Assembly: GCA_021772565.1 (NCBI GenBank)
Contig: JAJFLR010000071.1
Location: forward strand, 1-41,271
Reading direction: 5' to 3'
Origin: Opitutales bacterium
Lineage (GTDB): Bacteria; Verrucomicrobiota; Verrucomicrobiia; Opitutales; JAJFLR01
Length of the DNA: 41,271 bases
The position numbers and the translations under genes are program-made. The notes beneath the pieces were generated by a model. It saw only the letters and a list, made by a program, of their open reading frames with translations. It did not search any database and was not told the DNA's origin. Positions 2,129 to 38,164 of the stretch are shown here, piece after piece; within the stretch, counting starts at the first letter, position 1, and every line of letters starts with the position of its first letter.

Positions 2129-4027
2129 TTATCTTGTTATAAACGGTATGTAGTTTGGGATTTCTCCGGTCAACGTTTTTGCCAGTATTCTGAACTGCAG
2201 TTCAATGGCTCGACGATAACTGACTTTGTAATCAAAAACAGGATGGGTTACTACCGTTGCTAATCGTTTTTCATATGCTTGAAAAAATGTTTTTCGACCT
2301 ACGGCAGCTAAATTAACTGATTGCCCGGCCATGACAAAATTTTCAGGTTTCAGCATCCGATTATTAATCAATGTTATGACAACAGAATCAGCAATTATCG
2401 GCCGAAATTCTTCTATAATATCGAGTGCGAGTGCTGGCCTGCCAAATCGGGGTTGATGATAAAATCCGAGATAGGGATCAAAACCAACTGCAAGTGCTGC
2501 CAGTGTGCAATCCCTTACCAACAAACTATAAGCAAGTGAGAGCATGGCATTGACAGCATCCCGGGGAGGTCGTCGATTTCGTTTTTCAAACTGAAAACCA
2601 AATTCCAACTGTGAATCATCACCGGATTCTTCCTGTATTTTCCCCGTTTTTATTAACCCTGAAAAATTTTGAAAATATACATGGGCAGCTGCTCCTTCGA
2701 TACCGAGCAATGAAGCCATACTGTTTGCCGCCAGTGCAGAGTTGGCCGCATATTTGAGTTGTTTTAAAATTCCACGCGGCGGTTCAATATGATTTCTCAT
2801 CAACAATGTCCGTTGATTGCGAATTTTGCCGTGAACAAAATAACGGGACAAGTTAAGGCAGGTTTCGGAATCACCGGCAAATCGAAATTGTTCAATACGA
2901 GTAAATATATTTTTTAACCCATGACCGTGCGTCATTCCATAAAACCAACCTCCCATTGAAAAATAGGTGATCGGTACCTCACGTTCACATAAAGTTTGGA
3001 TCACCGCTGTCGAAATTTGAATTGGCCCGAACAAGGCCAAATGATGGACATCTTTGATTAAAATTTCCTGTATGACCTTGCCTTTTTCTTTGGCAACAAG
3101 GCAGCCTGATTTTTTACTCAGATAGATTCCCGGGGTATTGAGGTAAAATGTCCGCGTTTCAATATCCTGAGCCAAAGAACGCCTGACCGGATTAACCGGC
3201 ATTAAATCCGGGTAATTTTTAACAGGAAAATTGATAATTACATCGGTCGTTAATTGTTGCGGTTCAGCAGGAGTATTTTCCAGTGCAAGCTGCATTTGAT
3301 CTGACACTTCTTCATCTGTATTTCCCTTTAGTTCCTGTCGTAACCAAGTGGTTTCATCAGGCAGACAAACGGGTGCCAATGAACATCGGGCACATTTAGG
3401 AGAATTCTCCAACGGTGCCGGCAACTGGCCTTTCGCACACTTGCGTGCCAGAACTATCTGATTTAGAATCCAGTTTTCTGTATCGTTATCCAATTTAAAA
3501 CAAACGCGCTGCCGAGTCTCCCGGTAATAAATAATGCCCTCGTCGCAATTATAACCGTTATCACGCAGTAACAGAATTTGAAGTCCAAGCTGCATTCTGT
3601 CAGTATCCCAAAGTGTCTTCCCATCATCTTCTTCCTTTGGTGCCCCTTTTTTGTATTCTACCGGTTGTACTGTGAAAGACGAATCAGATTTATCCGCGTC
3701 AAACTTCACCTCCACCAAATCGAGTTTGGCCGAAACACCCAAACGCTCTGAACCGAGATTTACAGAACTGCTATGGATGATTTCCGATTCTTCTGAAACA
3801 ACTTCCTTTTTTTCAGATTTACCGGTTTTTTTTGCAGAAGGCAGAGCCCCTTTTCCCTTATCGACTCGCTTATGTTGAGCACTGCCCTTGAGTGTATCAG
3901 CGTTATGAACAAATATCCCTTCAACAAATTCAAAATAAAACAAACGGGGACAATAAACAAACTCGTTGAGCATACGAGCCTGTATCCACTGGAAGTCGGT
4001 ATTTAATTCTGTTTTAGCCGGGTTCAT
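2129..4027 (-). CDS. cas4-cas1: Cas4-Cas1 fusion protein (spacer acquisition)
   Basis: This 632-residue protein fuses two adaptation proteins, as is known for type I-G. Residues 1 to about 230 are Cas4: Cys26 in YCPRL and Cys212, Cys215 and Cys221 can hold an iron-sulfur cluster, and Asp103, Glu124 and Lys126 (EYK) form the RecB-like nuclease motif. Residues from about 285 to the end are Cas1: Glu444 in GIEGAAA, His524 in FYHQPRFGR and Asp536/Glu539 in LDIIEEFRP match the metal-binding catalytic site. Known fusions of this kind select protospacers with the right PAM, trim them and integrate them with Cas2. All catalytic residues appear intact, so adaptation should be possible. The linker around residues 45-90 and 225-275 is charged and variable. 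Start ATG at 4027; a 170-bp gap separates it from the broken toxin upstream. Confidence 0.95.
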   Translation of the reverse strand: MNPAKTELNTDFQWIQARMLNEFVYCPRLFYFEFVEGIFVHNADTLKGSAQHKRVDKGKGALPSAKKTGKSEKKEVVSEESEIIHSSSVNLGSERLGVSAKLDLVEVKFDADKSDSSFTVQPVEYKKGAPKEEDDGKTLWDTDRMQLGLQILLLRDNGYNCDEGIIYYRETRQRVCFKLDNDTENWILNQIVLARKCAKGQLPAPLENSPKCARCSLAPVCLPDETTWLRQELKGNTDEEVSDQMQLALENTPAEPQQLTTDVIINFPVKNYPDLMPVNPVRRSLAQDIETRTFYLNTPGIYLSKKSGCLVAKEKGKVIQEILIKDVHHLALFGPIQISTAVIQTLCEREVPITYFSMGGWFYGMTHGHGLKNIFTRIEQFRFAGDSETCLNLSRYFVHGKIRNQRTLLMRNHIEPPRGILKQLKYAANSALAANSMASLLGIEGAAAHVYFQNFSGLIKTGKIQEESGDDSQLEFGFQFEKRNRRPPRDAVNAMLSLAYSLLVRDCTLAALAVGFDPYLGFYHQPRFGRPALALDIIEEFRPIIADSVVITLINNRMLKPENFVMAGQSVNLAAVGRKTFFQAYEKRLATVVTHPVFDYKVSYRRAIELQFRILAKTLTGEIPNYIPFITR

Positions 4028-4944: not shown

Positions 4945-7299
4945 TCAAAATTCGCTTTCAATTACAGGCACAAAGAGCCCGAGGCCGAAATGGGAGGAAT
5001 GACCGAGAGCGAGGGGCATCACAACAGGTGATTCAAAAAACAGCTCGTAGAAAAAACCGATTCTTTGTTCAAATTTTTTTTTGTTAAATTCAGAATTATT
5101 ATTGTGACAGGCTACACTGACTGCACCGGAAAACAATGATGTATCAGAAACAGGTACTCGGACAATATCCCACATTGCTTGGGGAAGATTATTTTCTTGT
5201 GAGACTGTTTTTCCTTCGAGATTCGCCAACCGATGTATTTCGCAGGGAACATGAATGCCGGATCGTTTTAAACTATCGATCAATTGCTGCTCAGGCGAGT
5301 CTTTTACTTTGAGTTTTGCTCCATGAAGATTTCCACGATAAAAATGACGAGGTGGAACATAAGGTGTTAAGGATCGCCATTTACGTGCAGGTTTCATTAT
5401 CTTGGCAAATAGACCATCCTCAGGCAATTCATTTTGCATACGAACCATTACCGGTTTGACAGGATATTCACCTTTCCCCCAATAAAGAGATTTGACGCGT
5501 TGTAATGCCGATAATTCATCTTGCGTAAAACCGTAAGGACACCATAGGTGAAGTTCTTCTATTTGATTTGATTGTGAAATATTTCTCGGAAGTGGCAGAA
5601 AGAACGCATGTTGATGATCGTCTTTAAGATTACTCGGCTTGCTGTGCCCACTAAGTGCAAAAGAATTGCCATTAAATTTTTTGAGAGCGGCACTGCGAAA
5701 TTTTTCAGCAAGGGGTACGGTGAATTTTAATGGTATAGGTTTATGGTAATTGAATTTAAAGCAAAGATAATGAGCGATTTTCGGAATACTATATCTTTCT
5801 CTTTTTTTAGGTGCCATTAATCCGAGACCAAGAAAACGACCATCTCCTATCAATAAAGGTCCTTTAATCGGCTCTGTGAAAGATATTTCAACATGCCATA
5901 AACGTTGTTTCGAAAACCGAGTACCCTCAGCAAATGGTTCCACACGTTGTCCATTAGATTCAAATGGTTCTCGCTGTACACGGATCAAATTAGCGTTAGC
6001 TCTAATGTGTGCATAACGAAGTGCCTGAATAACAGCAGCAGCTCTCTGTACTTCATCTTTTATCCTTTTTGAATTATTCTTAACATTGTCCAAAACGAAG
6101 TCAGAATCAATTACAGCATCAGGCAAAGCAACAGGTGTTACAGAACGCCAGACCTGATAGCCTTTATCCTGATCAATCCCATAATGTTCATTCATCGATT
6201 TGTTTTCAGATCGTACAATATCTACCATACATTCCGCTTCCTCTACTTTTAATTGAATTCCAGAAAATGCCCAGAAGACATCTTTAGAGCAAATTGGACA
6301 ACCGGAAGACACTTCAATAATGATGCGCCGAATTCCACGGTCGGCATGATGAAAACCGATTGACGGCAAAGGAATAATTCTCACACGGTTTTCAGTTGGA
6401 CTAGCATCTGCTCCATTTGCCTTTCGACCAACAAAATAACTTTCGATTTCATTCTGATTTTCAATTAATGCCTTCTTAAGTTTTTGGACTGCCTTATCAC
6501 GCAAGGTGACTACCAACCGTGTTACCTGTTCGAGTGGCCAAATGGCAAACTTAGATTCTTCTGAGCTTTTACGAAGTTCATATACTTGATACGAAGGTGG
6601 ACTATTGTAGGCGATTGAATTGAATTTTGCTTTCGGCTGTTTTCGATAACTTTGCGATAAAGAGTGACCAGAGATTATAGTATCAAAGCGTTTGCTATTT
6701 GCCGCGTAACGCTTATTCAAACTTTCAATAGAACCTGTACAAGGAGATTTCAGCGTTAAACTACCACCTCCATTAAATGGACGATAGACTGAGCCCGGGT
6801 AGTATAAAGTTTGAGTATCAAATTCCTCTTTGCTAAGCAACTCGCTCCATGCCCAAGCTAAATCGACTCCTCGTCCAAACTGGTAAAGCTTATCGGCCAG
6901 TTTTTGGATGATCCTTGCATGCACTAAGTCACTTTTATTTTTATCAAAGATCCATGCATACAAAAAAGGTACCGAAGCATCGAATATAAATGGACGAATG
7001 AGTTTTGACGTCTTAATATCTACGATAAGTCGAGGATCACCTTGTTTCGCATCGAGATCGTTATTCGGTACGTAATTCGAGTAGCTTTCTCCTTTTACCA
7101 TGCGTGGACAGGCTATTACTGGCGGGACGCAGTTTTCTAACCACTTTAAAGCTTCAATTTCTGAGTCCGCCAATGGACCACTTAATCCTGCGCCTGCTAC
7201 TAACGCTTGAAAGAGCCTTGCAGGTGAAGGTGGCCAATCATCCATGCCATAGTAACGGCCATCATGCATGTGTACAGTGATTAAAAGAAATTGTGACAT
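4945..7299 (-). CDS. csb2: Csb2, Cas5-Cas6 fusion of type I-G (GSU0054 family)
   Basis: Csb2 combines the Cas5 role (holding the 5' handle of the crRNA in the effector) with the Cas6 role (cutting the repeat). The 784-residue protein starts with the family signature WPPSPARLFQALVA (residues 22-35). It has two RAMP-type glycine-rich loops: GDGRFLGLGL around residue 485, which ends the Cas5-like part, and GHSSHFGLGLF at 766-776, which ends the Cas6-like part and supplies His767 and His770 as candidate catalytic histidines. A segment near residues 330-340 contains CPIC. The start at 7299 lies 3 bp after the csb1 stop, so the two are co-transcribed and probably translationally coupled. Length and both domains look complete. 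Confidence 0.93.
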   Translation of the reverse strand: MSQFLLITVHMHDGRYYGMDDWPPSPARLFQALVAGAGLSGPLADSEIEALKWLENCVPPVIACPRMVKGESYSNYVPNNDLDAKQGDPRLIVDIKTSKLIRPFIFDASVPFLYAWIFDKNKSDLVHARIIQKLADKLYQFGRGVDLAWAWSELLSKEEFDTQTLYYPGSVYRPFNGGGSLTLKSPCTGSIESLNKRYAANSKRFDTIISGHSLSQSYRKQPKAKFNSIAYNSPPSYQVYELRKSSEESKFAIWPLEQVTRLVVTLRDKAVQKLKKALIENQNEIESYFVGRKANGADASPTENRVRIIPLPSIGFHHADRGIRRIIIEVSSGCPICSKDVFWAFSGIQLKVEEAECMVDIVRSENKSMNEHYGIDQDKGYQVWRSVTPVALPDAVIDSDFVLDNVKNNSKRIKDEVQRAAAVIQALRYAHIRANANLIRVQREPFESNGQRVEPFAEGTRFSKQRLWHVEISFTEPIKGPLLIGDGRFLGLGLMAPKKRERYSIPKIAHYLCFKFNYHKPIPLKFTVPLAEKFRSAALKKFNGNSFALSGHSKPSNLKDDHQHAFFLPLPRNISQSNQIEELHLWCPYGFTQDELSALQRVKSLYWGKGEYPVKPVMVRMQNELPEDGLFAKIMKPARKWRSLTPYVPPRHFYRGNLHGAKLKVKDSPEQQLIDSLKRSGIHVPCEIHRLANLEGKTVSQENNLPQAMWDIVRVPVSDTSLFSGAVSVACHNNNSEFNKKKFEQRIGFFYELFFESPVVMPLALGHSSHFGLGLFVPVIESEF

Positions 7300-7302
7300 C
7301 GC

Positions 7303-8541
7303 TTATTTGTTTTCTGTATCATCCTTAGGCTTCTTTTTTAGGAGCTTTTTGGCTTCAGAGTGATCGAATGTAAATTCAAGTTCTTTTTTAGGTCTCCATT
7401 TTTCCCTGAAATGGCTGGCAGCTTTTTCAGTGTATTCCTCGATTAATTTTTTAGCGTCCGCTGAATCCAAATTTAAAATTTCTGGCTTGCCGCGTCGTGG
7501 AATAGCATACCATTTATCATCTCCACTGTAACGTAGATTACAACCTTCTCTTAGAAATAGTTCTATATCAGCTGTTGCTGCAATAAGTGAAAGCCCAAGT
7601 AGATATTTGCGAATATGCGTTGTTTCGTTTTCGTCATTACCTCTTAACCCACGTAATGCGACAAGATTAACGGTAACATCACGTTCGATTCGGTCATTGA
7701 CTAAAACCCCTCCCAACACTCGTGCTTCTGGATTTGGTAATCCATCATTGCGGTATTGTGGTATCTTTGTATCTCTAAAAGTTGAGGGCGCATCAGCAAA
7801 CCCTACAACTGAAAGTTTTTTCTTTTGTTTTTTGGCTTCGTCATCTAACACCTTTTTAGATTCCTCGTCAAGAGTCTTCCAGATAGAATTAAATTGCGCA
7901 GCGGCATGAAGCGGATCAACATCCCATGCACGAATGATGGATCGAACTAATCGAGGTCGTTTCTCTCCAGAATTACGAGAGTCCCAAACGCCAAAGACCA
8001 AAGAGGTAGGCGCTAATTTACACAATGGTTCTGCATCTCCTGTATCCTTTAGCGTTTTAAAAGCAAGTTCGACATCTCTCATCAAACCTGTTGACGAACG
8101 AACTACGGCGTCTGCAATGCGGTGTGCCAAATCAAGTAATGAGCGTTTTTCTTTGCGAGGACTTTTACAGTTATCATTCTTAGTGCGATTTTCTTTTTTA
8201 CATATGTCACATTCACCACAGTCTTCTGTTCTGATAACAATATCGATCTGAGGAACGATCCATTTTTTACTGTCATCTTCCGTAGATTTAAAGATTGGCT
8301 CCAGTCGATTTGCTTGTGAGCCAACGCTATCAATTAGTGCAACACGTGTGCCGTCTGAAAGGGTATCAATGTTGTAACCAATATCTGCGTAAGTAGGTGG
8401 ATAGATAATACATCGATCATCTTCATTCAACATCTCAACAGAAAGAAGCTTCTGTTTCAGATGAAGGGCTACTGGGCCATTCATATTAGTTGCCCAATCA
8501 TCGAGCAGTTTTTCTGTTATTTTTTCTTCGGTATTATTCAT
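7303..8541 (-). CDS. csb1: Csb1, Cas7-type backbone subunit of type I-G (GSU0053 family)
   Basis: Csb1 is the repeated backbone subunit that coats the crRNA in the type I-G effector. The 412-residue protein carries the recognisable family core: SLLDLAHRIADAVVRSS (134-150), then PTSLVFGVWDSR (about 178-189) and KRPRLVRSIIRAW. Between the first beta region and that core lies a cysteine cluster, Cys108, Cys111, Cys114 and Cys125, which could bind zinc. The C-terminal tail is rich in lysine. The gene lies 32 bp downstream of csb3 and 3 bp upstream of csb2. The upstream sequence is A+T-rich with no Shine-Dalgarno site, as at many starts in this window. Confidence 0.92.
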   Translation of the reverse strand: MNNTEEKITEKLLDDWATNMNGPVALHLKQKLLSVEMLNEDDRCIIYPPTYADIGYNIDTLSDGTRVALIDSVGSQANRLEPIFKSTEDDSKKWIVPQIDIVIRTEDCGECDICKKENRTKNDNCKSPRKEKRSLLDLAHRIADAVVRSSTGLMRDVELAFKTLKDTGDAEPLCKLAPTSLVFGVWDSRNSGEKRPRLVRSIIRAWDVDPLHAAAQFNSIWKTLDEESKKVLDDEAKKQKKKLSVVGFADAPSTFRDTKIPQYRNDGLPNPEARVLGGVLVNDRIERDVTVNLVALRGLRGNDENETTHIRKYLLGLSLIAATADIELFLREGCNLRYSGDDKWYAIPRRGKPEILNLDSADAKKLIEEYTEKAASHFREKWRPKKELEFTFDHSEAKKLLKKKPKDDTENK

Positions 8542-8573: not shown

Positions 8574-9539
8574 TTATATTTCCTTTTCAGCAAATGTAAT
8601 AACTTTATTTTTTCCAGAGAGATCTAGTATGAAATGGAATCTCCTAGTCGATGCGACAATGGGTGCTCCAGAGAATGTTATTCGTGCTAATATTGGAGGC
8701 AAAAGCCCAGACCAAACCCAGTAGCGAACCTTTCTTTTTTTTTTGCTTTTAGAGCTGGCTTTTTCATATTCGTCGGGGCGAGCGTGTTCCAAGCCCAATG
8801 CTGCAAGAAGCTCTACTACTGGAGATGAAGCAATTCCATGATGATGTTCATCTGGTGAATAACCAGCATCTATTGTAGTCCAAGCTCCTCTGGGATCAAA
8901 ATTAAAACTGCCACCCAAGTTAGTAAGCACATCAAAAGGTGAATTTATTAATTGGGCACTTTTTTGATTCCACAGATGAGTAATTCCCAGAGTCTTTATC
9001 TCAACGTTACTCTTTTTTTTGGTTGGTTTCTTGTAAGTTCCATTTAACATTGCAGATGCAATTTTTTGTGCCGATCTATTACCGGCATATAGTTTAAATG
9101 CGTTACGACTTGAGCCATCTGCCCAATGACTAATAACTACTGAACAATTCAACTCTGATGTAAGGTGAATAGGTAATGACATACGTAATGCTTCGTTGTC
9201 AGGATATGTTTCGAATAACTTTAGTTTTGTTTCTACTATTGATGCATCTGTATTGCTATTATTATCTTTGTTCTTTTTTTTCTTTTTATTAGGTGATTTA
9301 TCTTCGTATCCAATGTGAGCTAAACGTTCAATCTCTGCTGTAGTGAGAAATTTTAAAACAACTGCAAAAGGATTCTCTTCTCCATTAGCCTGTAAATGAA
9401 AACGCACATTAGATTCATCACTCCAATCAAAGCCACCTTCAGCATTTCCAAGAAGAGTATTGGCAGCTTCGAGAAATCCCAAACAGGCAAAAACTTGGCC
9501 AGGATTTAATAGATCTACAGGAATTGATGAGGTAGTCAT
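8574..9539 (-). CDS. csb3: Csb3, Cas8-like subunit of type I-G
   Basis: This 321-residue protein begins with SIPVDLLNPGQVFACLGFLEAA, the characteristic opening of the Csb3 family, which occupies the large-subunit (Cas8) position in this subtype and is thought to take part in PAM recognition and Cas3 recruitment. Other family-like parts are FNFDPRGAW around residues 213-221 and the GLEHARP region near 249. Two lysine-rich stretches (about residues 84-92 and 261-267) are low-complexity insertions that could contact nucleic acid. Its ATG overlaps the cas3 stop by one base (TAATG), so translation is coupled to cas3. Subunit naming in this subtype varies between Csb3 and Cas8g; the family call rests mainly on the N-terminal signature and operon position. 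Confidence 0.85.
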   Translation of the reverse strand: MTTSSIPVDLLNPGQVFACLGFLEAANTLLGNAEGGFDWSDESNVRFHLQANGEENPFAVVLKFLTTAEIERLAHIGYEDKSPNKKKKKNKDNNSNTDASIVETKLKLFETYPDNEALRMSLPIHLTSELNCSVVISHWADGSSRNAFKLYAGNRSAQKIASAMLNGTYKKPTKKKSNVEIKTLGITHLWNQKSAQLINSPFDVLTNLGGSFNFDPRGAWTTIDAGYSPDEHHHGIASSPVVELLAALGLEHARPDEYEKASSKSKKKRKVRYWVWSGLLPPILARITFSGAPIVASTRRFHFILDLSGKNKVITFAEKEI

Positions 9540-12415
9540 TATTCTTCCTCCTTTCTTGTTTCACTATTATTTTCTTCGTTCTCTCGCGAGGCTTGTTGGT
9601 CTGCTGAACGAAGTAATGTTTCCCACCAGGCAAGTCCCCACGGCCCCCAGCGTTTTTGTAAGCGAGCAAAACGCAGAGCTACTTCCTTAGCACGTTCCTG
9701 CAAAACTGAAGGTGGCGCTTCATTGCAACCGTTCGTTGAGATAATTGGGCGAGCATATCCGTGATGTGCGGCAATCAAATGAAGGGCAAGGTCTTGAAGA
9801 TTAGGTTCAAGGTTTTTGAAATCTTGATCTGATTTTGCCAGGAAGAAGGATGCAAATTCGTGACGGTAGCGATCCAGTATTGCGTAATTAATTGGGCCAG
9901 GTGTTTTTGCATAGATATGATCATCAGGTGCGTTAAATGCTCTTTGCCAAAGTTCGGAGCGTTTGCCTTCATCGTGGAGTCGGGCTGCAATGGAAAGCAT
10001 TTCAGCGTATGCCACTGGTAATTTGAGCTTTTGAGCAATTTCCTCAATTTTTACGACAACCCTATTTTGATGTTTTTCGAGAAGTTGATATTTACCGGCT
10101 GAACTATCATCTGCTGTTGCACTATCGTTCCGCCATTTCTCAATAATCAAGCAACTCTCTAATTCACCATCTTCGGTTTGTTTGGTTGCAAAAGAAAATC
10201 GCTGATACCATCCTAGTTTTTTTGGTTCGTCTATATCTCTCACTCGAAAGCGAACCACTGGTTCACCCTCTATTGGCTCGATCCAATTTTCACCATCGTC
10301 AATTGTGTGCGGTATGTTAGCAAAAGTAGAGTCTAGGAGACCATCGTTGTTGAGCCCCGCAAAACATGCATCAAGGACAATCGTTGTGCCAATAAGCTTT
10401 TGTTCTATGCTGTCCTTCCTTCTTTTATTGTTTTTCTTATCTGTATTATCAAACAAGAATTCATTTAACTTAAATTTATCAAGAACATCACCATTACGTC
10501 CCAGTACGAAAGCAACCACATCGTCTTTCTGTAATTGTGAACTATCGCTAGTAATTTTATCAGATATTCTTTTGTTGGGTGCTTTACTAATAACTTTTGT
10601 TGCACGTTTTGTTACCCAATCCATTACTCTGAAAGTCTCTGTTTCTAATATTTCACTGGCATGGGGTGGTGCCGCTTGGAAAAACGCATTTTGTTCGCTT
10701 GGTGTCGCTGGATTACCGGTAATACGAACAGGTAAATACTTGCGCCAAACAACAGATGTTTGTGGTTCCTGATCAACCCAACCACGCAACCACGGCTCTA
10801 TGTTAGGTCGTCCTGTATGTTTTTCAAGTGATGTCATTGACCAGGCATCAACCAATGCTCGTGTGAGGGCGGGATAAAGCGGTGGAGGGGTTGTTGCAGA
10901 ATCAAGTATTTTTTTTCGTTGTAAAATTTCTTCAGCGGCCAATTCATTCGACTCAACTGAAAGTGTACTAAGTTTAAGTTCTCGAAGTGCACCTGGGCTA
11001 ACATCGATACCACCTTCGTATTTAGGTAGTAAATCAAACGGCTTTGCGAGGATTGTATTTGATTCTAGTTCAATTAGATATTTTGCTAACTCCTTATTCT
11101 CTTTTTCCGTTCTATCCTCATTTAATTTTTTCTCGGCACTTTCGACTATCGCATTTTTTTTAGGTTCATGTAACAGAACATTTACTTTAGCATAACTATC
11201 ACCGCGCCGATTTACCCGTCCAAGTCTTTGCACCATTCGTTCCCAATGAACTATGTCGGAAACCATGTGCTGGGCATCCATATCGACGCCTACCTCACCA
11301 GCAGAAGTAGCAAAAATAAATGCGGGGTGTTCCAGAGTTACATTGTTTCCTGCGATAAATCCATGCTCTTTGAGCCATGATAAAGTTTTCTCACGTTCTA
11401 ATACCCTTCGTCCTCCAACAAAAAGTTGAATGTAGTCTTCAACTTTTTTAATCCCTTCTTTTTTGTGTTCTTTTGCGAGTTTTAGTAATGCATCCTTAGC
11501 TTTCTCTGCATCATTTCTTTTGTGACAATAAATGATTATTGGAATTTTGTTGTTACCCTGATCAGCTAAACTCCAAGCTTCATCAGCCAATTTTTGCGGT
11601 AGTTTTTCGTCGACGTTAATATGTACGAGTTTAAGTAATTTTTTTGCATCAAGTCTCTTTCTTGTAATAGTTCCCGGCTTCAAATCTGCTTCAGTTAGAC
11701 CAAATGTTTCGTTTCCTTTTGTTCGACCGGTTGCAGATAGAGACATAAGTTGGAACTTTGGAATAAGAGATCGAAATGCTTCATCATTAGAGCCGAAAAT
11801 ATTTTTAGAATCATTAGCGATTACTTCGAGAAGCTTCTCAAACGGTGGCACAAGGTGGGATTCGTCAAGTACGAGCAAAGTGTCCGCCCCCATCAATCCG
11901 GCATGATACGGTCTCATTTTCCGTGAAGTTCGATAACCCTCAAAGAACAACCGTGAACCTATCATATCGACAGTGCCAACAATGACCGCAGGCAAAGTAG
12001 GATTTTCAAGCCATTCCCGATTATCGACGTGTTTCCCTCTCAAAGTTGAAATCGGTAGTGGACGGGAAAGTCCTAATGCCTCTTTGATGTTAGGATTTTT
12101 CTCAATAAAACAACGTAGCTCTTCAGCAACTTCAGTAGCCTGATCGACCACGGCACGCCGATCCACGACATAAACTAATCGACGCGGTAATTCCGACCCC
12201 ATCGCCCTCGCAATGAGCCAGATTGCCATGACAGCAGTCTTACCAAGTCCGGTTGGAATGTCCAATGAACGAGGAATTAAACCAACATTAAAATTTTCCA
12301 ATAGTTTATTCTGCCAATTAAAAGGTGTATCAGGTTCGTTAAGACCTAACGCGTCGCGAAGCCATGTTTTGGCAATTGAATCTTTTTCAGTTTGATGATT
12401 AGTCAGCATTATCAT
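9539..12415 (-). CDS. cas3: Cas3 helicase-nuclease, type I-G (C-terminal HD)
   Basis: Cas3 is recruited to target DNA after crRNA pairing and unwinds and degrades it. The 958-residue protein has an SF2 helicase first: Walker A PTGLGKT (54-60), DESH box (184-187), SAT (227-229) and motif VI QRLGRVNRRG (396-405). The HD nuclease follows at the C-terminus: His814-Asp815 (LHDEGK), His852, His884-His885 (AHHG) and Asp939 (SADQQ). Helicase-then-HD is the reverse of the common Cas3 order and fits type I-G. All motifs are intact. ATG codons at 12415 and 12409 are both possible starts; AGAGAAC just upstream is a weak ribosome site. It is the first gene of the cas row. The tail after about residue 942 is acidic and basic low complexity. 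Confidence 0.94.
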   Translation of the reverse strand: MIMLTNHQTEKDSIAKTWLRDALGLNEPDTPFNWQNKLLENFNVGLIPRSLDIPTGLGKTAVMAIWLIARAMGSELPRRLVYVVDRRAVVDQATEVAEELRCFIEKNPNIKEALGLSRPLPISTLRGKHVDNREWLENPTLPAVIVGTVDMIGSRLFFEGYRTSRKMRPYHAGLMGADTLLVLDESHLVPPFEKLLEVIANDSKNIFGSNDEAFRSLIPKFQLMSLSATGRTKGNETFGLTEADLKPGTITRKRLDAKKLLKLVHINVDEKLPQKLADEAWSLADQGNNKIPIIIYCHKRNDAEKAKDALLKLAKEHKKEGIKKVEDYIQLFVGGRRVLEREKTLSWLKEHGFIAGNNVTLEHPAFIFATSAGEVGVDMDAQHMVSDIVHWERMVQRLGRVNRRGDSYAKVNVLLHEPKKNAIVESAEKKLNEDRTEKENKELAKYLIELESNTILAKPFDLLPKYEGGIDVSPGALRELKLSTLSVESNELAAEEILQRKKILDSATTPPPLYPALTRALVDAWSMTSLEKHTGRPNIEPWLRGWVDQEPQTSVVWRKYLPVRITGNPATPSEQNAFFQAAPPHASEILETETFRVMDWVTKRATKVISKAPNKRISDKITSDSSQLQKDDVVAFVLGRNGDVLDKFKLNEFLFDNTDKKNNKRRKDSIEQKLIGTTIVLDACFAGLNNDGLLDSTFANIPHTIDDGENWIEPIEGEPVVRFRVRDIDEPKKLGWYQRFSFATKQTEDGELESCLIIEKWRNDSATADDSSAGKYQLLEKHQNRVVVKIEEIAQKLKLPVAYAEMLSIAARLHDEGKRSELWQRAFNAPDDHIYAKTPGPINYAILDRYRHEFASFFLAKSDQDFKNLEPNLQDLALHLIAAHHGYARPIISTNGCNEAPPSVLQERAKEVALRFARLQKRWGPWGLAWWETLLRSADQQASRENEENNSETRKEEE

Positions 12416-12964
12416 CTAATGTTCTCTAAAATTAAAAAATCCGTGTTCAATACATTATCCATAGCTTTAGCGGTGGCTAATCCGCGTAAATCTGCGGCCA
12501 AAAAATTACTCTCAGGATTTTCTCTGTGTTCTTGGTGAACACGCTGAGTGTCACTTCTTTTATTTGTGTCCAACGAACGGAGCGAGACGCTCCGTCTACG
12601 GGTGGATTCCCCGCACGCCAATCGGCATTGGTAGTCGTACGGTTTATGATCGGTAGCGGTTTCAAATACAACTGGAAATTCAATCGACATGCTTGGTTAG
12701 GCTATTATTTATTGCTTATGCTTTGTATAGTTAGAAACGGGTTGAAATAATGAAATGGATTTTTTCATTATTTGGAATTAGTGATTATTTATTAGTTAAA
12801 CTAAATGATTTCTCAAATTATATTTCTCAATAGAAAGTTAAAATTTGTGTTGAATTTGTAATTAGAATACGGCGAACAATTTATACATAATTTTTTACAA
12901 CTCTTTAAAATAACATAAACTTTATTGACTTTGTAATAATAATATTAAATGTCAACATGAATGA
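12416..12964. repeat. Non-coding gap upstream of cas3 with dispersed-repeat debris
   Basis: No gene is supported here; the open frames on both strands have no coding character. Bases about 12470-12620 contain phrases typical of dispersed non-coding repeats in PVC-type genomes: AATCCGCGTAAATCTGCGGCC, a segment reading like TCTCTGTGTTCTTGGTG, and a perfect hairpin ACGGAGCG-AGA-CGCTCCGT at 12577-12595. The rest (12700-12964) is very A+T-rich and probably holds the cas3 promoter and the end of the neighbouring 82-residue gene. Confidence 0.5.
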
Positions 12965-13213
12965 TTAAATTTTTTGAGAAATATTTACCTTGAGAGATGA
13001 AGAATTTAAGCCATCTGGCAATAAAACTTGAAATCGGTCTTCTGCATCATCTACCTGTAGAACAATTTCCGCGTTCCCAGGTGGATAGTCTTTTGGAGAT
13101 TTTAATATGATAAAACTTCCTCCCATTTGTGTAATCGGAACAACACAATCCGCCAAAACAAGTTCCATATTCACTTTTGCTGAATGAGTAGACTGTAAAT
13201 TTGTAATTGTCAT
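12965..13213 (-). CDS. Small conserved-looking protein, function unknown
   Basis: The 82-residue product is soluble, with no signal peptide or membrane segment. It has the pattern MELVLADCVVPITQMGGSF followed by a proline-rich DYPPGNAEIVLQVDD stretch and LLPDGL, consistent with a small beta-strand protein. I recall similar small proteins next to kinase-like proteins, normally on the same strand, but cannot name the family with confidence. Here the ATG at 13213 overlaps the ATG of the kinase-like gene on the opposite strand (13212), so the ribosome sites lie inside each other's coding sequence. The alternative start Met16 (MELVLADC) would separate the two genes by 44 bp. Function is unknown; association with the kinase-like gene is inference. 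Confidence 0.5.
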   Translation of the reverse strand: MTITNLQSTHSAKVNMELVLADCVVPITQMGGSFIILKSPKDYPPGNAEIVLQVDDAEDRFQVLLPDGLNSSSLKVNISQKI

Positions 13214-13718
13214 GGATAATAAACTGATTCAACAAGCCGAACGTTATATAATGAAAAGAAACGTTCTCCTTACGAAACAATTGGGTATTGGAATTCATGG
13301 TGTTGTTTATGTTGCTATTGACAAGCAAAAAATGGAAAGATTTGCCGTTAAAATCCACCGGTATAAAGAAGCTTATCAGCGAGAATGTGCAATATATCGG
13401 CGTTTGGCAAAATTAGAGGTTTACCAAATTCAAGGATGCAACGTACCTCTATTACTAGGACAAGATGATGAGATATATGCAATTGAAATGACAATTGTAA
13501 GCCGACCATTTGTTTTGGATTTCGCTGGAGCATATTTAGATCATCCTCCCGATTTCCCGGAAAATGTGTGGGACGATTGGGAAAAAGAAAAAATTGCACA
13601 TTTTGAGAATGACTGGCCAGCAGTTGAATTCATTTTAGCCGAATTTCGTATGCATGGAATATTTCTCTATGATATTTCAAAAAATAACATTTCATTCCGC
13701 GATCCCGGTTATGTCTAA
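13212..13718 (+). CDS. Truncated protein-kinase-like protein
   Basis: The 168-residue protein resembles the N-lobe and the catalytic-loop region of a eukaryotic-like protein kinase. A glycine-rich loop (LGIGIHGVVYVA, about residues 25-36) is followed by the FAVKIH lysine motif (about 45-50) and an ECAIYRRL helix with a candidate Glu. The C-terminal YDISKNNISFRDPG looks like a degenerate HxD...N / DxG pair (D-x-x-x-x-N and D-P-G). A normal kinase is about 260 residues, so this is a short, specialised form; short proteins of this type are known, so truncation need not mean loss. Phosphotransfer activity cannot be assumed. It lies divergent to the 82-residue gene and ends 10 bp before the CRISPR-like mini-array. 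Confidence 0.6.
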   Translation: MDNKLIQQAERYIMKRNVLLTKQLGIGIHGVVYVAIDKQKMERFAVKIHRYKEAYQRECAIYRRLAKLEVYQIQGCNVPLLLGQDDEIYAIEMTIVSRPFVLDFAGAYLDHPPDFPENVWDDWEKEKIAHFENDWPAVEFILAEFRMHGIFLYDISKNNISFRDPGYV

Positions 13719-13727
13719 CTCTAATCG

Positions 13728-13817
13728 CGCCCCATTGAAGTATGTTCTTTTAAAGAGTTTTATACCTTAAGAAGAATCGTTATTTCCACGCTCCAACGAG
13801 CGTGGCCCCATTGAAGG
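13728..13817 (+). CRISPR. Solitary CRISPR-repeat-like element with degenerate partner (possible mini-array)
   Basis: Bases 13782-13817 form a 36-mer built like the repeat of the main array read in its transcribed direction: ATTTCC at the start, a perfect hairpin, and GGCCCCATTGAAG near the end. The hairpin arms and loop differ (CCACGCTC, CAAC, GAGCGTGG instead of CCGCATCT, TTCA, AGATGCGG), yet the arms still pair perfectly. Upstream, GCCCCATTGAAG recurs at 13729-13740 without a hairpin, leaving a spacer-sized gap of about 40 bp. The pattern degenerate repeat, spacer, full repeat resembles known mini-CRISPR genes such as creA/creR, but may be a relic of a lost array or part of a dispersed repeat. 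No Cas gene is adjacent; cas3 lies 1.3 kb away and faces the opposite way. Confidence 0.6.
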
Positions 13818-13858: not shown

Positions 13859-14107
13859 ATGAATTTAACATTAAGCATTCCTAACGAGTTGGCAGAGTCA
13901 TTAGCCTTTGATTAAAAAACGTTTGAAAACGACGTTCGTTTGGATCTTGCCGTGCTTTATTATCAGCAGGGCAAGCTGTCTCCGGGTCGGGCTGCCGAGT
14001 TAGCCGGATTGAAGCGAATTGAATTCGAAAGGATTTTTGGTGATCGAAGCATTGTTCGCGCATACTTGGAAGAGGGTATTGAACATGAACTAAGTGTTGA
14101 TATCTAA
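13859..14107 (+). pseudogene. UPF0175-family (antitoxin-like) gene with internal stop
   Basis: The frame opens with MNLTLSIPNELAESLAFD and reaches a TAA at 13913-13915. It then continues in the same frame with KTFENDVRLDLAVLYYQQ, GKLSPGRAAELAGLKRIEF and FERIFGD to a stop at 14107. The second part is the recognisable UPF0175 core, a small helix-turn-helix protein often acting as an antitoxin beside a PIN-type toxin. Apart from the single TAA the gene is complete (82 residues), so decay looks recent or the base is an error. No toxin gene follows; bases 14108-14247 hold nothing recognisable. The sequence is locally richer in G+C than its surroundings, consistent with transfer. Confidence 0.7.
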
Positions 14108-21942: not shown

Positions 21943-23124
21943 ATGCACAAAACTAAATTTTATTATAATCTTTTACTTATTTCATTAATTTTTATTACTA
22001 CTACTAAGCTTCAGGCACAATTTTTCATGTCAATTGAAGAATTACCGGGTGGTATAAATGAAAATTCTGCACTTGCTATCTCTGATCTTCAAAATTTCAT
22101 TGTGGGTTCAAGTAGTACTAATAATGGCACTGAATCATTGTGGTGGGAAGAATGGGTTCATAGCTCACCGATGGGTGATTTAACTGGCGGAACTTTTGAG
22201 AGTGTTGCTAATGCCATTAGCGCAGATGGCTTGGTAACTACTGGTTATGGAACTAGTGCAAACGGTAAAGAAGCTTACAGCTGGACTAAAACCGGTGGTA
22301 TGGTTGGTATAGGTGATTTATCAGGTGGAACATTTAGCAGCGAGGGATTAGGTGTATCCGGTGATGGAAGTATTATAGTTGGAAAGAGTGAAAGCTCAAA
22401 TGGCACAGAAGCATTCAGTTATACAACTACTGGCGGCATGCAAGGATTGGGTGATTTATCAGGTGGTGGCTTTAACAGTCAAGCTAATGCAGTTTCAAGA
22501 GATGGTAGTGTAATTGTCGGTCAAGGGGAAAGCGCCTCAGGAACTGAAGCATTTAGTTATACAACCGCTGGAGGCATGCAGGGATTAGGTGATCTCGCCG
22601 GTGGAGGTTTTAGCAGTACTGCAAATAGTGTCACAACTGATGCATTGGCGACAGAAACCGTGATTGTAGGTAGCAGTGAAAGCAGCAATGGTACGGAAGC
22701 ATTTCGATGGACTGCATCAGGTGGTATTATAGGATTGGGTGATCTTGGAGGAGGAGCATTTTCTAGTGTTGCCAACGATGTTAGCCAGGATGGTAATAGA
22801 GTAGTTGGAAATGCTACAACAGCGTTGGGACAAGAAGCATTTTTGTGGGACTCTAATGATGGAATGGTTAGACTACAGAACTATATCGTAAATGATTTTG
22901 GGTTTGATTTAACTGGCTGGCATCTTCTAACGGCACAATCAATCAGAGGTGATGGTCATGTGATTGTTGGAACAGGTATTAATCCAGATGGTGAAATGCA
23001 GGGATACGTATTTTCTGAATCTGGATATGCAATTCCATTTCACTTTAATCCCTCAATTGGAATTGCTATACTTGCCTTAATAATGGGTGCTGAAACTAAG
23101 AGAAGAAAACTAAAAAAAGTTTAG
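21943..23124 (+). CDS. HAF-repeat surface protein with C-terminal anchor-like tail
   Basis: The 393-residue protein has a signal peptide (about residues 1-26, ending QAQ) and five repeats of about 46 residues from residue 78 to about 310, each starting GDL(S/T/A/G)GG and containing a VG, an EAF and a GGM phrase. These are HAF-type extracellular repeats, expected to form a beta-propeller-like fold. The tail reads IPFHFNPSIGIAILALIMG followed by KRRKLKK: a hydrophobic helix and a basic end preceded by PFxFxPSxG. That layout resembles C-terminal sorting or anchoring signals but lacks the PEP motif. Function is unknown; exported location is well supported. It converges on mreD, and the short gap 23125-23193 holds no clear terminator. 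Confidence 0.8.
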   Translation: MHKTKFYYNLLLISLIFITTTKLQAQFFMSIEELPGGINENSALAISDLQNFIVGSSSTNNGTESLWWEEWVHSSPMGDLTGGTFESVANAISADGLVTTGYGTSANGKEAYSWTKTGGMVGIGDLSGGTFSSEGLGVSGDGSIIVGKSESSNGTEAFSYTTTGGMQGLGDLSGGGFNSQANAVSRDGSVIVGQGESASGTEAFSYTTAGGMQGLGDLAGGGFSSTANSVTTDALATETVIVGSSESSNGTEAFRWTASGGIIGLGDLGGGAFSSVANDVSQDGNRVVGNATTALGQEAFLWDSNDGMVRLQNYIVNDFGFDLTGWHLLTAQSIRGDGHVIVGTGINPDGEMQGYVFSESGYAIPFHFNPSIGIAILALIMGAETKRRKLKKV

Positions 23125-37783: not shown

Positions 37784-37904
37784 AATATAAAACATCCATA
37801 ATCGAATTATAACTATTGGCAAATTGTAAAATGAAAATCATTAATTAGTCCTATCGGAAAAAGCCAGTAGCCAAACCGACAATACTCAGATAGAATTTTA
37901 CATC

Positions 37905-38068
37905 TCACCATTCACCATTCACCATTCACCATCTACCATCTACCATCTGCCATCTACCATCTGCCATCTACCATCTGCCATCTACCATCTGCCATCTGCC
38001 ATCTGCCATCTGCCATCTGCCATCTGCTATCTGCCATCTGCTATTGGCTATCTGCTATTTGCTATTTG
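37905..38068. repeat. Heptamer microsatellite (TCACCAT / CTACCAT / CTGCCAT)
   Basis: About 23 tandem 7-base units, first TCACCAT (4 copies), then CTACCAT and CTGCCAT alternating, then CTGCCAT and CTGCTAT. Read on the other strand it is the GATGGCA / GATGGTA pattern seen in intergenic DNA of many PVC genomes. The rest of the gap between the GspF-like gene and ndk (37784-38164) shows no gene. Confidence 0.95.
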
Positions 38069-38164
38069 TATTCCATTACATATCACATGTAGCTCAAAAT
38101 TTTTAATCTTGCCTTTATTAAAAATAGTAATCCTCTCTCTAGATTCAAATTAAAATAGATAAAT

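Follow-up and report, generated by a model that had tools for sequence, protein, structure and literature searches.

A lone CRISPR repeat as half of a mini-array: a probable built-in RNA brake on a type I-G CRISPR-Cas system

Described Cascade-guided regulators and the host locus

CreR elements (cas-regulating RNAs) have been reported for type I-B, I-E and V-A systems (PMC13131331; reviewed in PMC12737573). The element described here resembles them in being a mini-array outside the main array and next to cas genes, with a PAM and partial complementarity upstream of cas, where repression without cleavage would be expected, but it differs in having a type I-G effector (Csb2/Cas7g/Cas8g, TTN PAM) and in its place at the 3′ end of another gene, an accessory one that is kinase-like in this locus and encodes a DUF3368 toxin in relatives. 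CreA, the antitoxin RNA of type I-B CreTA (PMC9458426), likewise has two degenerate repeats with processing features and a spacer with a 5′ half partly complementary to a promoter and a mismatched 3′ half; here, however, the target is upstream of cas, and no creT-like RNA toxin was recognised, a class for which no dedicated search method exists. CrePA is a protein toxin repressed by Cascade-CreA and carries a KilA-N domain (PMC12737573). A protein gene and a guide gene also lie together beside cas in the present locus, but the gene is kinase-like (or DUF3368 in relatives), with no match to KilA-N in the adjacent genes (kinase-like and PilZ-like), and its control by the guide is putative. Racr, solitary viral repeats that serve as viral anti-CRISPRs (PMC10651486), have the solitary CRISPR repeat in common with this element, which differs in adjoining cas genes and carrying a guide with a local target. 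The literature searched contained no report of CreR or CreA in type I-G; the primary CreR paper lay outside it and may list I-G candidates.

The window (the whole stretch of DNA analysed, 41,271 nucleotides) is an entire 41-kb contig (G000:C93), the minus strand of which carries a type I-G CRISPR-Cas locus. From the left contig end, which cuts the main array, the order is a 21-repeat array (1-1479; repeat ATTTCCGCATCTTTCAAGATGCGGCCCCATTGAAGC), a cas4g/cas1g fusion (2129-4027; NF049935, E=8.3e-206), csb2, encoding the fused Cas5/Cas6 that processes repeats (4945-7299; TIGR02165, E=9.7e-99), csb1/cas7g (7303-8541; PF09617, E=1.4e-30), cas8g2 (8574-9539; TIGR04106, E=8.8e-46) and the type I-G cas3 gene, cas3g (9539-12415; TIGR02621, E=2.3e-168). 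The type I-G genes (Csb1, Csb2, Cas8g, Cas3g and Cas4/1) are thus present. The first ORF of the cas operon (12412-12690, minus strand), ahead of cas3, has a Cas3g-like N-terminal start (MSIEFPVVFETATDHKPYDYQCRLACG) followed by unrelated sequence and is a probable cas3 relic. N-terminal Cas3g-like fragments running into unrelated sequence were also seen in three of the type I-G loci compared below (L101, L120 and L146), and in L114 a fragment next to the mini-array begins as an HD-domain start, then continues as unrelated sequence; such fragments beside mini-arrays give the impression that the elements went into, or took the place of, an older cas3. Elsewhere in the window, a tandem 7/14-nt repeat (CCATCTACCATCTG) occupies an intergenic segment (37880-38075) and ORF 21943-23124 contains internal 138-nt repeats (22171-22629).

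Anatomy of the mini-array and its predicted local target

A repeat-spacer-repeat element lies at 13698-13817 on the plus strand, comprising a degenerate first repeat (R1, 13698-13741), a 40-nt spacer or guide (13742-13781; ATGTTCTTTTAAAGAGTTTTATACCTTAAGAAGAATCGTT) and a full 36-nt repeat (R2, 13782-13817; ATTTCCACGCTCCAACGAGCGTGGCCCCATTGAAGG). The initial annotation had presented R2 as a lone repeat ~1.4 kb from the cas genes, with the outer blocks of the array repeat kept and both arms changed together over an 8-bp pairing, and these observations hold: the distance to the cas3 start (12415) agrees, ATTTCC...GGCCCCATTGAAG is retained, and both arms of the rebuilt stem (CCACGCTC/GAGCGTGG) differ from those of the array repeat but nonetheless pair perfectly (8 bp, 4-nt loop, -13.9 kcal/mol; 0/200 shuffles as good). 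Twelve handle bases had also been seen to recur at 13729-13740, about one spacer length away. This second copy, 76 nt upstream of that in R2, is present and the spacer measures 40 nt, but the copy exceeds 12 bases, a second stem (CGCGAT, 13698-13703; ATCGCG, 13724-13729; expanded 20-nt loop) making it a repeat, R1. The R1 arms end exactly 4 nt (CCCC, 13730-13733) before the ATTGAAG of the handle (ATTGAAGT, 13734-13741), and the 5′ arm falls among the final codons of the kinase-like ORF, the stop codon of which is at 13716-13718. Csb2 of type I-G cleaves 4 nt 3′ of the base of the hairpin, so that a handle of 8 nt remains (PMC9638904). Both repeats therefore have the geometry expected for Csb2 processing, and the features on which processing and loading depend, stem and 5′ handle, are kept.

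When the handle was followed through the 3.57-Mb genome, the exact 12-mer GCCCCATTGAAG was found, outside R1 and R2, only in CRISPR sequences, namely the main array and a two-repeat remnant on contig C38; the chance expectation for GGCCCCATTGAAG with <=2 mismatches is 0.75 per window. The remnant (G000:C38:26560-26670; L001 1426-1530), near another contig's end, consists of a repeat that differs by one change, then a 38-nt spacer and a repeat cut short; it could be where the main array ends or a further mini-array. The exact 34-mer had no match among the genome contigs searched, nor had the stem sequence in the viral contigs searched, and Rfam gave no match. Hits to the repeat pattern in G104, G117 and G030 proved to be ordinary arrays.

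The predicted target (protospacer) of the spacer is on the minus strand at 12877-12916, matched from 12916 downwards and flanked by the PAM TTT (12917-12919), in agreement with the TTN PAM of type I-G (PMC9638904). The first 20 nt match at 18 positions, with mismatches at 6 and 19; when compared unweighted and with no PAM required, spacer nt 1-18 are identical to 12916-12899 at 17/18 positions, position 6 being the sole difference, and the distal half of the spacer does not match. None of 20,000 shuffled spacers reached 17/18, and the 20 window array spacers scored at most 14 in the same unweighted test, as did the spacers of other elements (<=14). The pattern ATGTTNTTTTAAAGAGTT occurs exactly in the whole genome only in spacer and target, and no further near-exact match to the spacer seed was found in the 3.57 Mb. 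A match at 12419, just ahead of the cas3 start (7-nt seed), was superseded by that at 12899-12916. The target falls between a small gene (12965-13213) and the first cas-operon ORF (start 12690), both on the minus strand, and is 187-226 bp upstream of that ORF. As in CreR, a repeat-spacer-repeat mini-array outside the main array and near cas genes thus has PAM-bearing partial complementarity to sequence upstream of the cas operon at the same locus.

Mini-arrays and accessory genes across type I-G loci

Regions (n=110), mostly around csb1 of type I-G loci from Verrucomicrobiota, Planctomycetota, Acidobacteriota, Proteobacteria and others, were collected and searched for the handle-hairpin and R1-spacer-R2 anatomy outside arrays. 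Anatomy and position picked out 22 mini-arrays near type I-G cas genes in several phyla, and a PAM-anchored seed test was run for each against the surrounding 3.2 kb (permutation floor 0.001). A significant match was obtained for 17/22 elements (p<=0.007; 13 at the floor), with a Fisher combined p=2e-27, although the set includes related loci (L101/L133, L170/L175) and these p-values are optimistic. All 17 significant targets are upstream of the element and none is downstream, while no target was detectable for the remaining five (L108, L141, L169, L175 and L205). With the unweighted test and no PAM demand, 10/22 reach p<=0.02, and TTN is present in 10/10 of these mini-array targets compared with 14/167 (8%) best matches of array spacers. 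Type I effectors flip out every sixth guide base. Mismatches at positions 6 and 12 are therefore the expected signature, and 11 of the 18 mismatches within positions 1-16 fall there (p=1.6e-6), with none at positions 1-5, 7, 10, 11 or 13-16. The spacers of L170 and L175, from related Planctomycetota, have their first 16 nt in common and diverge thereafter, as expected if selection acts on the seed alone.

Targets mostly lie 5-280 bp ahead of the first cas gene; in L148, L164, L170 and L204 the interval between the target and the first cas gene identified is 400-1000 bp, and in L146 the target is not plainly tied to a cas promoter. In L120 (G023) the target starts ~5 bp ahead of csb1, and no accessory gene separates the two. 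Two gene orders recur. In class A (L101, L102, L109, L114 and L133) the cas operon is followed by the target, a divergent DUF3368 (PIN-type) toxin gene, the mini-array and a UPF0175 antitoxin gene. In class B (the window, L164, L165, L170 and L175) the cas operon and target are followed by a small gene, a kinase-like gene head to head with it and the mini-array, with a significant target in every locus except L175. In the kinase-linked L164, L165 and L170 the geometry resembles that of the window: the target, on the opposite strand, is 846-863 nt upstream of the handle, compared with 817 nt in the window. Mini-arrays or lone repeats also adjoin other toxin-antitoxin-like genes (PIN, XRE, short antitoxin-like ORFs) in L167, L159, L146 and L164.

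The initial annotation was borne out in placing the repeat between a kinase-like gene and a broken antitoxin-like gene. The former (13212-13718, plus strand; 168 aa), in the 3′ end of which the mini-array begins, has a GxGxHG loop, an ALK/AVK lysine and a D(V/I)xxxN motif. Its AlphaFold model, a confident one (pLDDT 91.9), gave partial best matches to protein-kinase folds, e.g. CK2, and assignment to a known family was rejected, the only matches being weak ones to Pkinase and PrkT. A profile of the kinase-like family hit 3/388 genomes of the phylum, all among the 20 that are I-G-positive, but the window accounts for one of the hits and the profile derives from I-G neighbours, making an association with type I-G suggestive only. 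The small gene (12965-13213, minus strand; 82 aa), between the kinase-like gene and the target, encodes a protein modelled as a barrel with weak resemblance to PilZ-type barrels. Start codons of kinase-like/PilZ-like pairs overlap or lie within a few nt of each other, head to head, in the window (12965-13718) and in L135, L164, L165, L170, L175, L133 and L113; with this layout, their promoters must be inside or beyond the partner gene. Directly behind R2 is a UPF0175 antitoxin remnant (13859-14107, plus strand; PF03683, E=1.5e-13 for the second fragment) with one in-frame stop (TAA, 13913-13915), so that the window looks like a class A locus with the toxin slot now occupied by the kinase-like gene.

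Proposed function and alternative explanations

The lone repeat is half of a mini-array, and with good confidence we take the element to be a one-spacer mini-array with a crRNA-like guide that would let the type I-G Cascade repress its own cas genes (CreR-like autorepression). The earlier suggestion of a CreTA- or CreR-like mini-array is strongly supported by the spacer's seed match, anchored on a PAM and located ahead of the cas operon, and by recurrence of this anatomy and targeting in many unrelated type I-G loci, where similar candidate brakes adjoin the cas genes. Against autorepression are the 5/22 elements with no detectable target, the larger target-to-cas distances in L148, L164, L170 and L204, the uncertain tie to a cas promoter in L146, the unusual length of the R1 loop, the probable cas3 relic between target and cas3, and the fact that the promoter-like sites found over the target are on the plus strand and at chance level. 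As between the two described models, the evidence favours CreR-like cas control, with control of the kinase-like gene possible.

A CreTA/CrePA-like addiction or alarm module, in which the guide also or mainly represses the accessory gene (kinase-like here, the DUF3368 PIN toxin in class A) and loss or inhibition of Cascade frees it, is a possibility we hold tentatively. In the five class A loci the cas operon and the divergent toxin gene flank the target, the element follows immediately 3′ of the toxin gene and UPF0175 comes next. A kinase-like gene takes the toxin's place in the window and in L164/L165/L170; a pair of weak promoter-like sites pointing toward the kinase-like gene lies over the target in the chance-level scan, and the head-to-head overlap means that the kinase promoter must be inside or beyond the small gene, toward the target. 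In the window, however, the 249-bp small gene separates the target from the kinase-like start, and in L120 cas control alone suffices, since no accessory gene intervenes between target and csb1. Co-control of accessory genes is possible and most plausible in class A, where the target sits in the shared divergent region. Its generalisation, a widespread type I-G module in which a guide in the 3′ UTR of a kinase-like or PIN-toxin gene would act at one site to repress that divergent accessory gene together with the cas operon, is if anything slightly more speculative. The divergent repeats, of which only two are left, the broken UPF0175 gene alongside and the two-repeat remnant on C38 could instead indicate a functionless relic of a second type I-G array, as had been proposed, or an old self-acquired spacer; we consider this improbable, as a relic leaves the spacer-target match unexplained, and the stem changes are compensatory, both handles are intact, the seed match differs at tolerated positions, other genomes have the same anatomy with different spacers and matching targets, and L170 and L175 agree over the seed but not beyond it. 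An ordinary dispersed or chance hairpin repeat, the main alternative raised at the outset, is refuted: the 73-nt repeat plus flank and the 22-nt flank each occur once in the genome, and the handle 12-mer is CRISPR-restricted.

Starting from what is observed (the anatomy, a target unique in the genome with its PAM, the seed pattern and their recurrence), autorepression would proceed as follows. Co-transcription with the kinase-like gene is likely because R1 begins inside the last codons of its ORF, and the transcript would read on through R1-spacer-R2. Csb2, judging by the geometry, would cut 4 nt past each hairpin and free a ATTGAAGU-spacer-R2 hairpin, giving a predicted guide RNA with its 5′ end at 13734, starting AUUGAAGU. 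Cascade loaded with this guide would bind at 12877-12919 upstream of the cas operon, where TTT and ~18-21 nt of near-complementarity are present. Because the distal half of the spacer is mismatched, Cas3 would probably not be licensed to cut, and the complex would block transcription instead. By analogy with known CreR systems, occupation of Cascade by other crRNAs or by an anti-CRISPR may lift repression and raise cas expression.

Type I-G is the least studied of the type I subtypes, and recurrent autorepression there would make RNA-guided autorepression of cas genes near-general in type I. PAM, seed and mismatch spacing are visible in the natural targets and would allow the seed rules of I-G to be read from genomes, and the undescribed kinase-like and PilZ-like gene pair are candidate I-G accessory genes. 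The position of the elements behind toxin or kinase-like genes ties cas autoregulation to toxin-antitoxin-like modules, and, if dual control were true, the locus would be a sensor of CRISPR status, with the kinase or toxin released once Cascade is titrated away or blocked by anti-CRISPRs.
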